A stretch of DNA of 64,000 bases, from positions 1 through 64,000 of the forward strand of contig NZ_QGDO01000011.1 of assembly GCF_003149185.1 (NCBI RefSeq), given 5' to 3'. This DNA is from Sediminitomix flava (GTDB lineage: Bacteria; Bacteroidota; Bacteroidia; Cytophagales; Flammeovirgaceae). Below the pieces are notes generated by a model. The model was not told where the DNA came from. It saw only the letters and a list, made by a program, of their open reading frames with translations, and searched no databases. Each line of letters starts with the position of its first letter. Position 1 is the first letter of the stretch. The position numbers and the translations under genes are program-made. Below, piece after piece: positions 40,722 through 47,094 of this stretch.

Positions 40722-42155
40722 TTAAACTGTAGCTTTAACGACGTCTTCCTCTGTCTCTTCCAATAGAACTTCCATGATATTGAAAGCAGCTTCTCTACCG
40801 TCTAAAGCAGCTGTTACAACCAAGTCAGCACCACGAACAGTATCACCTCCTGCATAAACTCCTTTCTTAGAAGTTTCTAACTTATCGTTAGTTACAATTG
40901 CGCCCCATTCGTTTGTATCAATGCCATTCGCATTTAGATACTTACTACGCTCGTTGTCAAAACCTAGCGCAAGAATTACGATATCAGCTTCTTCGAAATG
41001 CTCACTTCCAGCTACTTCTGAAGCTCTTTGTCTTCCTGAAGCATCTGCTTCGCTCAGTTGCATATTTACAAACTCAACAGCTGTGATATTTCCTGCTTCA
41101 TCAACTTGGAAACGTTTTGGTTGCTCCAAGAACCTGAATTCTACACCTTCTTCTTTGGCTGCTGCAACCTCTTTACGGCTACCCGGCATATTTATTTCAT
41201 CACGACGATAGAAACATCTTACCGAAGCAGCATTTTCACGGATTGAAGTACGCACACAGTCCATTGCTGTATCACCACCACCAATCACGATGACATTCTT
41301 TCCTTTTACATCGTACTTTTTATCGTACATTTTCTCATCCAATTTCTTTTGCGTATTGGTCAAGAAAGGAACAGCCATGTAAAGGTTGTCTGTATTATAA
41401 TTCTCGTCTGAAAGAACTTTACCTTGTGTAGCCCCAATTCCCATGAACACCGCATCATGCTTATCATAGATTTCTTGGAAAGTAACATCTTTTCCAATCT
41501 CGGTGCTAAGGTGAAGCTCCATACCTGCTTCAAGCAAAGAATTTACTCTTCGCTCAACAGCTTTTTTCTCCAATTTGAAACCAGGAATACCGTAAGTCAA
41601 AAGACCTCCAGCAGCATCTGCTTTCTCATAAACTACAGGTGTAATCCCTGCTCTCAACAAGAAAGTTGCACACGAAAGACCTGCAGGTCCTGATCCGATA
41701 ATTGCTACTTTATGTCCTGTTTTTTGAGAAGCAAACTCAGGTTTTAAACCTGCTTCAAATCCTCTTTCAGAAATGGCTACTTCAATTGAACCAATCGTAA
41801 TTGCTCCGATTGTATGCTCATCATTTCCATCATTCAAAGTACAAGCTCCTTCACACAGACGATCTTGCGGACAAATACGTCCTAAAATCTCTGGAAATGG
41901 AGATGTTTCGTTTGAAATACGGAAGGCCAATTCCAAATCTTTTTGTGCAATGAACTTAAGCCATTGCGGAATATTATTGCTCAAAGGACAGCCCGATGCA
42001 CTACAGTAAGGGTTTCCACACTGAACACAACGACTTGCCTGTGAGCGTGCTTCCTCCTTAGTGTACTGATGACTGATTTCTCTGAAATTATCTACACGTT
42101 CGTTAGTTGGTTTCAACTGCGGAACGATTCGTTCTATTTTAGTGAATTCCTGCAT
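40722..42155 (-). CDS. gltD: Glutamate synthase small (beta) subunit
   Basis: GltD is the FAD- and NADPH-binding subunit that feeds electrons to GltB for reductive amination of 2-oxoglutarate. The 477-residue protein has an N-terminal Cys-rich iron-sulfur region (SRCVQCGNPYCSASGCPL, then QDRLCEGACT), the FAD loop IGSGPAGLSCATFLLRAG and the NAD(P)H loop VIGGGDTAMDCVRTS, ending with the C-terminal FAD segment GVYAGGDTVRGADLVV. It follows gltB on the same strand, but 502 nt of repeat-like sequence intervene; in most genomes the two are adjacent. Identification is secure. Confidence 0.96.
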   Translation of the reverse strand: MQEFTKIERIVPQLKPTNERVDNFREISHQYTKEEARSQASRCVQCGNPYCSASGCPLSNNIPQWLKFIAQKDLELAFRISNETSPFPEILGRICPQDRLCEGACTLNDGNDEHTIGAITIGSIEVAISERGFEAGLKPEFASQKTGHKVAIIGSGPAGLSCATFLLRAGITPVVYEKADAAGGLLTYGIPGFKLEKKAVERRVNSLLEAGMELHLSTEIGKDVTFQEIYDKHDAVFMGIGATQGKVLSDENYNTDNLYMAVPFLTNTQKKLDEKMYDKKYDVKGKNVIVIGGGDTAMDCVRTSIRENAASVRCFYRRDEINMPGSRKEVAAAKEEGVEFRFLEQPKRFQVDEAGNITAVEFVNMQLSEADASGRQRASEVAGSEHFEEADIVILALGFDNERSKYLNANGIDTNEWGAIVTNDKLETSKKGVYAGGDTVRGADLVVTAALDGREAAFNIMEVLLEETEEDVVKATV

Positions 42156-42657
42156 TTGTTCTTTGGTTAATTAAGATGTTGTGATGAAATAAACACATCC
42201 CTTATTCAGCTTGATTCTGCACTAGACTTCTTCATTTTACTGTAGTTATCTCTTTTTTCTTTTGGCTTGACCCAAAAGAAACAAAAAGTCAAGGCTAAAA
42301 TACTTCACCTAAATTCTATTACATTTTCGCTAAAAACCCTAAACTCGCTTCGCTCAAACATAGTGTTTTTTAACGCTTTCATTTCATATAATTCTTTACG
42401 GCTACGTATCTAATGCCACTTTTATAATCACCTCAATAAGCGGGCTGTTTGCCCCACGTGAGAAGCTTAGGCTGTCTTGTGGGAAGTAGATTCGATGGGG
42501 CTTGACTTTTTTTGCTTCGTTTTTTGTGTCAAGACAAAAAATGAAGGCTGCAATTCCTTAAGAATCTACTTTGTCCGCTGAGATAGACTATAATTAAATG
42601 ATACTACAATCAATCTAGTATAATCCTACTTTCAAAGGTTTGATCGAGAATACCCCA
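42156..42657. repeat. Repeat-like element inserted between gltB and gltD
   Basis: This 502-nt spacer is unlike the other gaps. Its left end carries CTTGAC / GTCAAG arms at 42266-42271 and 42288-42293, and its right end the same hexamers at 42501-42506 and 42528-42533. The right hairpin is also bracketed by AGTAGATTC (42485-42493) and GAATCTACT (42562-42570). Phrases such as CGCTTCGCTCAAAC and TTTGCTTCGTTTTTTGTG, which I recall from short dispersed repeats in Bacteroidota, occur. There is no open frame of note. Only one copy is in view, so the repeat nature rests on structure and memory. Confidence 0.55.
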
Positions 42658-45600
42658 TTAATCTCCTTCCATAGGGTTAAGAGGAGCTTTCATGTCTTTG
42701 GACGTAACCAAATAGAAATTACGTGACTCCTCACGGAAATTATCCAAAATGCGTTTTGCTTTTTCACTTGACGTACGGTAGTGATAGCTTCTCAAGATAC
42801 GTAGTAAGTAATAACGAGCCTCATCTTGATCATCTGTATCAATACGCTCAGCTTTGATCAACTCTTGGTTCATCTTATCTACGAACTTACGATCAGGGTC
42901 ATAAACAAATGCAGCTCCACCTGTCATACCTGCACCGAAGTTGTATCCTGTTTCACCCAAAATCACTACTGTACCACCTGTCATATATTCACAAGCGTGG
43001 TCTCCTGTACCTTCTACTACAGCTAGGGCTCCTGAGTTTCTTACACCGAAACGCTCACCTACAGTACCCGCTACAAATAGTTTACCACCTGTTGCTCCGT
43101 AAAGACAAGTATTACCTGCTAATCCTCTAGCCCCAGACAAGTCACTTGAAGTGATGATGATCTGTCCTCCACGCATACCTTTACCAACATAATCATTGGC
43201 TTGACCGTAAAGTTTCAACATCATACCTCTAACAAGGAATGCTCCGAATGATTGCCCTGCCGTACCTGTTAGGTTTAGCGTAATCAATTCTTTAGTCAAT
43301 CCTTTATCGCCGTAATGACCTGCAATTTCACCGCTAATCATTGCACCAAAGCTTCGGTTTGTATTGACAATTTTCTTGTCCAATACCACTTTCTGATGTG
43401 GTGCTCTAATCACTGGCTCAAGTTCTTTCAAAATCGCTTTTTCATACACATTGTCATCCCAAGGTGTATTGCGTTTTGACTGACGAACATTAAATCCTTC
43501 GCCATTATATAATACATCACTGAAGTCAAATTTCTTCGCAAACTCATCGTTGATTACTTTCAACAAGTGTGTCTGACCGATAATATCATCCAGTTTTTTA
43601 TAGCCTAATTCTGCTAAAATCTGACGAACTTCTTCTCCTACTGCTGTTAGATAGTTTACAATACCCTTTACAGTACCCACATAATATGCTCTCAACATTT
43701 CATCTTGTGTAGCAACACCTACACTACATTTGTTGAGGTGACATACACGAAGGATTTTACATCCAACAGTTGTCAAGATTGTTGTACCGAAAGCATAACT
43801 CTCTGCTCCAAGAATTGCAGCTTTTACGATGTCAAGACCTGTTTTCAGACCTCCATCTGTTTGCAATTCTACATTTCCACGAAGACCATTCGCTTTCAAA
43901 GCATTGTGTGCTTCACTCAAACCAAGCTCCCAAGGGTTACCTGCAAACTTGATCGAACCTAGTTGTGCAGCTCCAGTACCTCCGTCAGCTCCAGAGATAA
44001 TGATCTTATCGGCATAAGCTTTAGCTACCCCTACTGCAATTGTACCTACACCTGCACTAGATACTAGTTTTACAGAAACTCTTGCTTTCGGGTTCACTTG
44101 CTTCAAGTCGAAGATCAACTGTGCTAAATCCTCTATCGAGTAGATATCGTGGTGAGGAGGTGGAGAGATCAAGGTTACTCCCGGGATAGTACAGCGAAGT
44201 GTAGCGATGAGAGGCGTCACTTTAGAACCTGGCAATTGCCCACCTTCTCCAGGCTTGGCTCCTTGTGCCACCTTGATTTGAATCTCTTCTGCACTACGTA
44301 AGTATTCAGGAGTCACCCCGAAACGTCCGGAAGCAATCTGCTTGATCTTAGAGTTCAAGTTCGTGCCGAAACGTCTTTTAGCTTCCCCACCTTCTCCCGA
44401 GTTGGACTGACCGCCCAATTGGTTCATAGCTTCTGCAATTGCTTCATGAGCTTCTGGAGAAATAGATCCCAAACTCATGGCAGCAGATGCAAAACGCCAA
44501 GTAATATCTTTCAGTGGTTCAACTTCGTCTATTGAGATAGAAGGTCTTTCAGAATTAAATTCGAAGAAATCTCGAATCATCTTCTGCCCTCTATGATTTA
44601 TTCTATCCTTGAATTCTTCATAAGCCTCTGGCGTACCCTTACGTGCAATCTTGTGGATTTGCTGTGCAACTTCTGGAGAGAAGTCATGGTACTCGCCATT
44701 GTCCATGTACTTATAGAAACTACCTACCTCTAATGGGTACATACGTTTCATATAATGACGTTTGAACGCTTGCTTATGATTTTTATGAATTCTGAATTCG
44801 ATATCATCAAATGATAATCCTTTCAGAAGTCCTACAGATGAAGTAAAACACATTGATCTTACTTCTTCACTCAAACCAACCACATCAAACAATGCCGAAT
44901 TTTGGTAACTATCCAAAGTAGAAATACCCATTTTCGACATGATCTTCAATAGACCAAGGTTGATTGCCTTCTGAGTTTTCTGAAGAACTTTCTTCTGTTC
45001 TTGCCAACAATCTTCCTTCTTACGTTTAGCCAATTGCATTACTGTTGACCAAAGCAAATAAGGATAAACTGCTGTAGCTCCATAACCCAACATTACTGCT
45101 GCAGAGTGAGAGTCATAAACTTCACCCGTAATTGCAACGATTGAAACAGCTCCTCTGATTCTTTTCTCAGCTAACAATTGATTGACATAACCCACCACCA
45201 TAGCCATCGGAATCAAACGGTTTTTACCATCTAATGATCTATCATCAAAATAGATGATCCCTGCCTTATCGTCTCTTACAGCTTTAACTACTGCTTCACC
45301 TAAATCAACCAAAGATTGTTTCAAGTCTTTTTTGAAAGTAGTAGAGAAAACAGCACTCTTATATACTGGGTCATAAAGGAAATTCCCCTTTTCTCCATGT
45401 GCCTTCAAGACATTCATTTTTTCGAAAGAAAGCAATGGATTCATTGTCTTCAGACGGTGACTACCATCAGGACCATTACGCAATGGGTTGTTTCTTGGTC
45501 CGAAAGTAACCGAAGTCGACATTACAATACGCTCACGTAGTGGGTCAATCGGAGGATTGGTTACTTGAGCAAATTTTTGACGGAAGAAATCGGTAAAACT

Positions 45601-47094
45601 ACGTTGTACAGTAGAGAAACATGCCAAAGGCGTATCATCACCCATAGAACCTGTTTCCTCTTTTCCTTTTTCTACCATTGGTGCGATTACTTGCTCTACC
45701 ACTTCGTTCGTGAAGTTGTGGTATCGCTGCATATCCACCATGTTATCATATGAATAATCGGCAAAGTCTGTAAAGTTCTTTCCGATATGATCTTTCAAAT
45801 AATAGTTATTCTGACGAAGCCATTTTCCCCAAGGACGTTGATCTTTCAAATAATCATTTACTTCCTCATTTTTCAGGATTCGACCATATTTCAAGTCGAT
45901 AGCCATCATCTCGCCACCTTTCAAACGACCTTGTTCTACGATATCTTCATCATCGATATCAACCACACCATATTCACTGGCGATTACAACACGGTCATCT
46001 TTAGTGATGATATATTTTGCTGGTCTCAGACCATTTCTATCAATCATACATGCGATGTAACGTCCGTCAGTAAGGTTTACTGCCGCAGGACCATCCCATG
46101 CTTCAAAGTTACTTGACAAATACTCGTAGAAGTCACGTAATTTTGAATCAATCATTGGCGCATTTTGCCAAGGCGCAGGAATTACACAACGAGCTGCCTT
46201 GAAGAAGTCAACACCCGCTTGTACCAAAAACTCAAAGAAGTTATCTAAACTCGCACTATCACTTGCACCTTCTGTCAGAATTGGAAAAATTCTGTCTAAC
46301 TCTTCTTTTGAGAACACAAGACTCTCCATCAGTTCTTCACTGACCTTAACATTGAACCTGTTTGCCTGAATAGAGTTGATTTCGCCATTATGGGCTAAAG
46401 TTCTGAAAGGTTGAGCTAGAGGCCAACGAGGGAGTGTATTTGTTGAGAATCTTTGGTGGAAAAGAGCAAAACTCACTTCAAAATCATCTTCACTCAAATC
46501 AAGGTAGAAATCCTTGATTACGGTAGGCATTACCAAACCTTTGTATGAGATTACTCGATCTGAGAATGAACAGATATAGAAATCTTCTTCATCCTTGAGC
46601 GCATGCTCAACTTCTTTTCTTACTAAATATAATAATGAAGAGAAACGACGAGTTGAAATCAAGCTATTCGGGATAACAAAAGCTTGTGTGATATTAGGTA
46701 GTGTTTCTTTGGCTTGCTCTCCAAGTGGTTGAGTATCTACAGGTACTTCTCTGAAGAATAATACGCGTAAATCACTTTTCTCACAATACTCACAAAATAC
46801 CTCTTTCTGACGTTCGTTCGTGAGGAACATCATGGCAATTGCATAGGTTTCGGGAAGGTCGAAACCATTAAGTTCAGCTACTCGATTCATAAACTGATGA
46901 GGCATAGAGAACAAAAGTCCACTACCATCACCACTTTTTCCGTCAGCGGCTACAGCCCCACGGTGAATCATTCTGGATAGTGCTTCGATCGCATCTAAGG
47001 TCATCTGTCGAGATGGGATATTGCGAGCATGTGCCACCATACCAAAACCACAGTTGTCCTTGAAGCTGGTTAGTCTTTCTTTCATAGAGTTCAT
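42658..47094 (-). CDS. gltB: Glutamate synthase large (alpha) subunit
   Basis: The 1478-residue GltB hydrolyses glutamine and transfers the ammonia through a tunnel to 2-oxoglutarate. Domains in order: the class-II glutaminase, whose N-terminal nucleophile Cys15 (DNCGFG) is exposed after a 14-residue propeptide is removed; a central domain; the FMN-binding synthase domain (SGADGGTGAAQLGSIK, LQTDGGLKTG) with the 3Fe-4S ligands in GCKILRVCHLNKCSVG; and a C-terminal beta-helix (GGTVVILGETGYNFGAGMTGG). Codon 4 is an alternative ATG. Cofactors match the NADPH-type GltBD enzyme with gltD downstream. Confidence 0.97.
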   Translation of the reverse strand: MNSMKERLTSFKDNCGFGMVAHARNIPSRQMTLDAIEALSRMIHRGAVAADGKSGDGSGLLFSMPHQFMNRVAELNGFDLPETYAIAMMFLTNERQKEVFCEYCEKSDLRVLFFREVPVDTQPLGEQAKETLPNITQAFVIPNSLISTRRFSSLLYLVRKEVEHALKDEEDFYICSFSDRVISYKGLVMPTVIKDFYLDLSEDDFEVSFALFHQRFSTNTLPRWPLAQPFRTLAHNGEINSIQANRFNVKVSEELMESLVFSKEELDRIFPILTEGASDSASLDNFFEFLVQAGVDFFKAARCVIPAPWQNAPMIDSKLRDFYEYLSSNFEAWDGPAAVNLTDGRYIACMIDRNGLRPAKYIITKDDRVVIASEYGVVDIDDEDIVEQGRLKGGEMMAIDLKYGRILKNEEVNDYLKDQRPWGKWLRQNNYYLKDHIGKNFTDFADYSYDNMVDMQRYHNFTNEVVEQVIAPMVEKGKEETGSMGDDTPLACFSTVQRSFTDFFRQKFAQVTNPPIDPLRERIVMSTSVTFGPRNNPLRNGPDGSHRLKTMNPLLSFEKMNVLKAHGEKGNFLYDPVYKSAVFSTTFKKDLKQSLVDLGEAVVKAVRDDKAGIIYFDDRSLDGKNRLIPMAMVVGYVNQLLAEKRIRGAVSIVAITGEVYDSHSAAVMLGYGATAVYPYLLWSTVMQLAKRKKEDCWQEQKKVLQKTQKAINLGLLKIMSKMGISTLDSYQNSALFDVVGLSEEVRSMCFTSSVGLLKGLSFDDIEFRIHKNHKQAFKRHYMKRMYPLEVGSFYKYMDNGEYHDFSPEVAQQIHKIARKGTPEAYEEFKDRINHRGQKMIRDFFEFNSERPSISIDEVEPLKDITWRFASAAMSLGSISPEAHEAIAEAMNQLGGQSNSGEGGEAKRRFGTNLNSKIKQIASGRFGVTPEYLRSAEEIQIKVAQGAKPGEGGQLPGSKVTPLIATLRCTIPGVTLISPPPHHDIYSIEDLAQLIFDLKQVNPKARVSVKLVSSAGVGTIAVGVAKAYADKIIISGADGGTGAAQLGSIKFAGNPWELGLSEAHNALKANGLRGNVELQTDGGLKTGLDIVKAAILGAESYAFGTTILTTVGCKILRVCHLNKCSVGVATQDEMLRAYYVGTVKGIVNYLTAVGEEVRQILAELGYKKLDDIIGQTHLLKVINDEFAKKFDFSDVLYNGEGFNVRQSKRNTPWDDNVYEKAILKELEPVIRAPHQKVVLDKKIVNTNRSFGAMISGEIAGHYGDKGLTKELITLNLTGTAGQSFGAFLVRGMMLKLYGQANDYVGKGMRGGQIIITSSDLSGARGLAGNTCLYGATGGKLFVAGTVGERFGVRNSGALAVVEGTGDHACEYMTGGTVVILGETGYNFGAGMTGGAAFVYDPDRKFVDKMNQELIKAERIDTDDQDEARYYLLRILRSYHYRTSSEKAKRILDNFREESRNFYLVTSKDMKAPLNPMEGD

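Follow-up and report, generated by a model that had tools for sequence, protein, structure and literature searches.

The window analysed here, the whole stretch of 64,000 nucleotides from Sediminitomix flava, carries on its minus strand the host gene gltB (42658-47094) and, downstream of it, the host gene gltD (40722-42155). Both names were taken from an earlier reading of the letters alone (hereafter the sequence-only reading), and homologs of gltD were found in relatives. The two genes are separated by a gap of 502 bp, and the claim of that reading that a repeat-like element splits gltB from gltD was confirmed for the spacer as well as for the repeat-type element inside it. The comparison set for gltBD consisted of 28 genomes including that of S. 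flava, which was the only one of its genus. In the 15 of 17 searched same-family relatives that had both genes side by side the spacer measured 29-183 bp and was of different sequence, and in three genomes of other families 46, 178 and 269 bp lay between the aligned parts at gltB-gltD. Since the element was absent from gltBD of the 15 relatives, the insert belongs to the S. flava lineage, as far as sampled. The sequence-only reading had named a single copy in the genome together with the same spacer in all relatives as the observation that would speak against it, and the data contradicted this picture twice, because the element is multicopy and the spacers of the 15 relatives are shorter and different.

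The motifs CTTGAC and GTCAAG each occur twice in the spacer, two of each being found in 0 of 5000 mononucleotide shuffles, and they form two hairpin units at 42266-42293 and 42501-42533. The paired CTTGAC/GTCAAG arms described previously thus exist; their supposed position at both ends of the element was incorrect, as the hairpins lie 110 and 124 bp inside these ends. The nested AGTAGATTC/GAATCTACT pair is likewise real, its arms at 42484-42493 and 42562-42571 being paired at 10 of 10 positions. The two hairpins represent two inverted copies of one structured module within a composite insertion of approximately 408 bp (42217-42624, no strand assigned) with weak inverted-repeat ends at about 42217-42252 and 42580-42625. 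The inverted repeat of these ends scores 41, which was equalled or exceeded in 6 of 2000 shuffles (maximum 51), and the end coordinates are approximate because shuffles reach this score. Another locus of the same genome (L002) matches 42215-42561 at 71%; the inner parts of the window copy are common to this locus and to units bounded by terminal inverted repeats (TIR, see below), and its own ends are weak.

The left module (42255-42417, minus strand, delimited by the covariance model R1 described below) is of the full-length type A, is sense to gltB-gltD transcription, and stops roughly 100 nt short of the gltD start. Its 3' part comprises, on the minus strand, S1a (CTTGAC, 42288-42293), the loop L1 (TTTTTG, 42282-42287), which according to its sequence and the register rule given below would be the third strand of a proposed triple helix, S2a (TTTCTTTTGG, 42272-42281), S1b (GTCAAG, 42266-42271), a hairpin loop able to pair with S1a, and S2b (CCAAAAGAAA, 42256-42265). 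The right module (42451-42546, plus strand) is of the short type B, is antisense to gltBD, and is matched by R1 mainly in its 3' part. A 5' stem is proposed for it between GCCCCA (42451-42456) and TGGGGC (42496-42501) with the pseudoknot following next; this stem was read by eye from the copies in the same genome and is absent from the minimum-energy fold. The plus-strand elements that follow are S1a (CTTGAC, 42501-42506), L1 (TTTTTTTG, 42507-42514, assigned by sequence and register rule), S2a (42515-42527), S1b (GTCAAG, 42528-42533) and S2b (ACAAAAAATGAAG, 42534-42546).

Further insertions were noticed around gltBD of relatives. By eye, three of them (L039, L041 and L042 of genomes G013, G010 and G017, respectively) have approximately 122 bp inserted at the gltB stop codon when compared to L043, so that the gltB-gltD junction of these genomes appears to be the target of another insertion; the inserts have AGTACTAGG-like ends, as in the TIR units of S. 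flava. They are flanked by TAA or TA (by eye), a possible target-site duplication. In two relatives modules are located about 300 nt 3' of gltD on the minus strand (L039:1035-1204 and L043:1034-1203) behind a terminator-like hairpin, and the one in L039 has an altered S1.

Across genomes the module has the order 5' GGCMT, a long stem rod, a GCC pairing with the first GGC, S1a, L1, S2a, S1b and S2b. The rod carries the recurring elements GCGTNAA / TAGC and TGTYTGAG, S1 is formed by CTTGAY with RTCAAG, S1b is the hairpin loop, S2 has about 8-16 bp, and L1 is T-rich. The eight modules used to build the covariance model R1 came from seven sources; S. flava was not among them, and one module was from its family (G001). 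The model matched the left copy over 42417-42255 on the minus strand (model positions 1-166 of 166, 114.6 bits, E 5.1e-26) and the right copy over 42474-42544 (43.4 bits, E 5.3e-9), the next-best place in the window having an E-value of 0.24, and there was no match in 50 kb of Escherichia coli.

When the 395 Bacteroidota genomes of the sample were searched with a pattern for the hairpin core, matches were obtained in 67 of them, representing 43 of 171 genera (S. flava included). The total was 247 matches compared to 17 for a reversed control pattern, and because these 17 fell in 16 genomes part of the single matches is due to chance. The second stem was also formed by a listed match in at least 46 of the 67 genomes. 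Up to 46 matches were found in one genome (G044). Within the family of S. flava 9 of 18 genomes matched, and a further match in G003 is evidently a chance one. For the analyses below rows were drawn from the first places listed for each genome; 94 rows were typed, of which 17 were dropped for a stem of fewer than 7 pairs, a few of them real-looking (G322, G095, G122, G332), and the S2-forming cores numbered 77 from 47 genomes (46 of the sample plus G315). The window element itself matched three records of Parabacteroides distasonis, and the two examined each have a full module in antisense orientation, with an HU-family gene on one side and a smalltalk gene on the other. A module from G361 had no match when searched against phage records, and one doubtful Fusobacterium match was obtained among phage and plasmid records.

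Some modules form tandem arrays with a spacing of approximately 220-413 bp; arrays of two to six modules spaced by about 250-413 bp were observed at L233, L234, L235 and L237 (all G444), at L147 (G107) and at G003:C9:3073726-3075079. A cassette array was considered and rejected, since tandem arrays exist but a gene-per-unit pattern was not seen. We likewise rejected an autonomous form of the element carrying a gene within the rod: when 115 distinct modules were searched for a distant partner of the first stem, this partner lay mostly 115-180 nt away in those where the 5' GGCMT was found, and the larger distances resembled, by eye, other copies or chance matches.

Over the whole module, 22 of 40 consensus pairs show two-sided, pair-keeping changes in at least one of the eight sequences. 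In two sets of 18 and 13 gap-free cores, with rows chosen for a stem of at least 7 pairs and related by descent, S1 and S2 were paired in 99.7% and 98.6% of cells, and two-sided changes numbered 29 and 28 compared to 7.4 and 8.6 in shuffles, while structures slid along the alignment dropped to about half or less of the pairing. Because the search pattern fixed most of S1, the evidence for this stem comes from position 6 (C-G, T-A, A-T) and position 2 (T-A, C-G). Covarying S1 and S2, the mark of the class of triple-helix H-type pseudoknots, were accordingly found, with S1 varying at two positions only. Judged from these sequences, the 3' end of the module is very probably an H-type pseudoknot.

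The lengths of L1 and S2b follow a common rule. With the S1/S2 junction as the origin of numbering, nucleotide i of L1 is placed over nucleotide i+1 of S2b, and in 73 of the 77 distinct cores (47 genomes) the T run is as long as the end position of the S2b A-tract minus one. The fit to this register was 324 compared to 212 +- 8.5 in 5000 permutations (maximum 246), and with one core per genome it was 193 compared to 124 +- 7 (maximum 148). The length rule had been set on the phylum sample and was then obeyed by 19 of 21 cores taken from further genomes within the S. flava family, 1 of 22 having been dropped for a stem of fewer than 7 pairs; both window copies obey it too. C residues of L1 stand over a G in 18 of 18 cases in the 77-core set and in 7 of 9 cases in the new family cores, together 25 of 27, and both misses are in one core of G006 whose pyrimidine run merges into S2a. 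With this core left out (77 rows plus five C-bearing new rows), the parallel register accommodates 23 of 23 C residues, compared to 6 of 23 for an antiparallel register. The T residues by themselves are undecided, with 416 of 472 fitting the parallel register and 441 of 472 an antiparallel duplex with T.G allowed. From the length rule and the C-over-G placement we infer a parallel T(U).A-T(U) / C+.G-C major-groove triple helix, and the predicted U.A-U / C+.G-C form is the simplest reading of the cores and a likely one.

Folding of the two strands was compared for 38 modules with the 5' GGCMT at 105-200 nt, using the first module of each of 22 genomes. The module strand was more stable than its complement in 19 of the 22 genomes (p 6.5e-5) by a mean of 7.0 kcal/mol, and the mean z-score of the module fold was -4.3 compared to dinucleotide shuffles; the left window module had -38.9 kcal/mol in sense and -19.3 kcal/mol in antisense. 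The better folding of the module strand suggests that one strand is selected, as a single-stranded nucleic acid. Pairs other than Watson-Crick in S2 comprised 72 G.T, 8 C.A and 36 other mismatches, counted by automatic extension that may overrun the true end of the stem. The tolerance of G.T favours RNA, with single-stranded DNA as a possible form, and the selected form is probably RNA.

When the region was compared by BLAST with the genome it comes from, at least 30 matches besides itself were obtained, corresponding to at least 24 other sites when matches within 1 kb were merged; these are lower bounds as 40 of 69 candidates were scored. The resemblance to dispersed repeats and the self-BLAST check put forward in the sequence-only reading were thereby borne out. 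The hairpin-core pattern had 39 matches in this genome, 30 of which make up 15 inverted pairs within 260 bp, and in all 15 pairs the hairpin ends face outward. Two kinds of unit make up these modular copies, a long one (left) and a short one (right). Owing to the paired inverted layout, one copy is sense whichever way the unit inserts. Some copies are bounded by carrier ends of the type TAAGTACTAGGACA or TAAGTAGGTGGACA. The TIR TAAGTASKWGGACA had 35 exact hits in the 39-contig assembly compared to 0 for the reversed control, and exact TIRs make nine convergent pairs of 205-422 bp end to end; modules were seen inside TIR units of about 400 bp, the size class that was inspected, and other units are about 216 bp long. 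Among the 35 hits in the 39-contig assembly there was no convergent exact-TIR pair of more than 422 bp as would be formed by a partner transposase with the same ends. At L003:1297-1501 a 205-bp unit bounded by TAAGTACTAGGACA directly adjoins a truncated module, into which it looks to have inserted. For the copies in G044, inspection by eye showed different inverted repeats (AACTGASTATCCGC) at the ends, so that two carriers, one in S. flava and one in G044, have unrelated ends and the same module. The inverted partner of the G044 modules (L161, L162 and L167-L174, left part of the element) was read by eye as sharing their layout and having another S1, GGCA/TGCC, which may represent further covariation of S1.

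The genomic context was evaluated for 86 sites, one per gap and with S. flava copies left out. The gene before the module was on the same strand in 57 and on the opposite strand in 29 cases. Convergent module gaps outnumbered divergent ones by 24 to 9 (p 0.014 on its own), and in co-directional gaps 33 modules were sense and 20 antisense (p 0.10), a weak tendency. Module-free gaps of at least 150 bp at the same loci comprised 28 co-directional, 9 convergent and 7 divergent ones, and because of this background of 9 versus 7 a convergent/divergent bias of the modules is not established. The Bacteroidota -7 box is TAnnTTTG; before the module it was present in 1 of 37 upstream compared to 2 of 37 downstream regions, and no promoter motif was found there. 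Across the phylum the module adjoins unrelated genes. Modules were also observed in or next to apparent polysaccharide-synthesis clusters (L149, L159, L160, L164 and L165 from ORF starts, L252 from annotation). Four aligned copies each from G332 and G361 have, by eye, sharp edges, with the GGC on one side and a position just past S2b on the other, and no inverted repeats were seen by eye around these single modules. At one site G361 carries a module where its close kin G444 (94-95% flanks) has none; G452 (72%) also has a copy at this site, so G444 may have lost the module rather than G361 gained it.

Taken together, we lean towards the explanation that the spacer holds a non-autonomous dispersed element which is selected as a folded strand, probably RNA, and which landed in gltBD in the S. 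flava lineage; that the element is dispersed is hardly in doubt. The two inverted module copies would constitute a composite insertion between gltB and gltD. The element would spread non-autonomously, in S. flava frequently within a carrier bounded by inverted repeats, and would have landed between gltB and gltD after the split from the sampled relatives; no mobilising enzyme for it was identified. The suggestion of the sequence-only reading that the element is a small mobile unit or an RNA that tunes gltD relative to gltB held as regards a dispersed unit devoid of ORFs with a conserved RNA-like fold; the tuning was not shown, because the module stands beside unrelated genes and only one of the two copies is sense. 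As the weakest steps of the proposed mechanism, the sense copy, once transcribed, may form a compact knot by which 3'-to-5' decay of the preceding gltB message is slowed, and this knot may detach gltD from the gltB message. Exonuclease-blocking repeats and 3'-end triple helices offer the analogy for such slowed decay, and triple-helix knots protect messages at some eukaryotic RNA ends. By this analogy a message-protecting role at gltBD is conceivable, though we consider it doubtful, and its odds are lowered because the gap background leaves a position bias undistinguished. In a further scenario, which we regard as unlikely, the module is a phylum-wide selfish RNA, whose transcript, capped at the 3' end by the triple-helix pseudoknot, would be the moving form, with host DNA transposons later taking up inverted pairs; it would be a bacterial counterpart of SINEs, copied in trans by a reverse transcriptase.

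Movement as DNA would account for the dispersal in other ways. The inverted repeats of the S. flava carriers, with 35 exact hits versus 0 and nine convergent pairs of 205-422 bp, and those seen by eye around the G044 copies agree with an ordinary cut-and-paste MITE in which the hairpins are an inner repeat without an RNA role. This is rather unlikely, as the carrier ends are unrelated yet the module is the same, the single modules of G332 and G361 are without such ends, those of the window copy are weak, and the covariation, the register rule and the strand bias stand against it. Alternatively, a Y1 (HUH) transposase could mobilise the hairpins in the form of single-stranded DNA, as in REP/RAYT or IS200/IS605 relics, which would fit the strand-specific folding and the lack of visible inverted repeats around the G332 and G361 copies. 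The probability of this route is low nonetheless: Y1_Tnp genes were not associated with the module, being present in 21 of 24 module-rich genomes versus 19 of 24 genomes without a pattern match and absent from G264, G414 and G394 with 7, 9 and 5 pattern matches, respectively. The sole Y1_Tnp (RAYT-like) match of S. flava (L032, C2:297539-300739) is located among different hairpins carrying CGTCC, and no core copies were found in this 3.2-kb locus.

Regulatory functions in place were judged less probable. Strong hairpins in gaps, and the 24 convergent versus 9 divergent sites (background 9 versus 7), would suit a two-way transcription terminator, but the T run comes before the hairpin and not after it, and a terminator is very unlikely here; it was rejected as a candidate since a consensus scan of 42100-42720 found only 42121-42135, inside gltD, and none in the element. 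Most improbable is a cis-regulatory RNA dedicated to glutamate synthase, be it an attenuator or a riboswitch. The sense copy about 100 nt before gltD and the modules downstream of gltD in two relatives, though behind the terminator-like hairpin, speak for such an RNA, whereas R1 had no match (E up to 1) at 13 of 15 same-family gltD loci, neither of the two relatives' matches is in the gltB-gltD spacer, and the genes beside the module across the phylum are unrelated.

The modules of 14 loci were searched against Rfam 15 in two rounds with E-value limits of 5 and 1, and no family matched; the sole match above the gathering score was Acido-Lenti-1 in L155, away from the modules. No description of the module was found in the accessible parts of the literature covered, including PMC11109978, PMC3733652 and PMC9723704, subscription papers and preprints lying outside the scope. 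The module family seems new, as an RNA-like, dispersed one with a predicted triple-helix pseudoknot. If the fold is true, a dispersed, RNA-like element is present in Bacteroidota ranging from the S. flava family to Parabacteroides, and the triple-helix pseudoknot joins the bacterial repeats; it would also allow a test of message protection by such knots in bacteria and account for some of the unusual spacers within operons, gltBD being one.

For the pseudoknot of the module we take SAM-II, preQ1-II and telomerase to be the systems for comparison. They share with it the S1-L1-S2 order and a pyrimidine-rich L1 along a purine strand, whereas the module is dispersed in many copies, has an S1b that exactly fills the S2 hairpin loop, and is without known ligand or metabolic gene context. 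As in MITEs, the modules of S. flava and G044 are carried by units of a few hundred bp that end in inverted repeats; unlike in MITEs, these ends vary between hosts, and terminal inverted repeats, found as nine pairs in S. flava and by eye in G044, are weak in the window copy and by eye not seen at the aligned single modules of G332 and G361. REP/BIME repeats with RAYT genes (GTAG- and CGTC-tagged), as far as described in the parts available of PMC3733652, are similarly ORF-less, palindromic, intergenic and present in many copies, but consist of a 20-40-bp palindrome, whereas the module is a multi-stem unit of about 165 nt plus a pseudoknot without a tie to Y1. Membership in REP/RAYT was rejected, as the copies neither flank nor accompany a Y1 (RAYT) gene, and by eye no GTAG or CGTC tag beside a 20-40-bp palindrome was present in the conserved columns of alignment A3, the unit being about 165 nt long. 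A further likeness is that to MRSC-65-2, a 'mobile/repeat sequence candidate' which the parts available of PMC11109978 present as a multicopy structured motif with covariation and dozens of copies per genome; it has one long stem and UYCCGG repeats, neither of which is apparent by eye in the conserved letters of the module.
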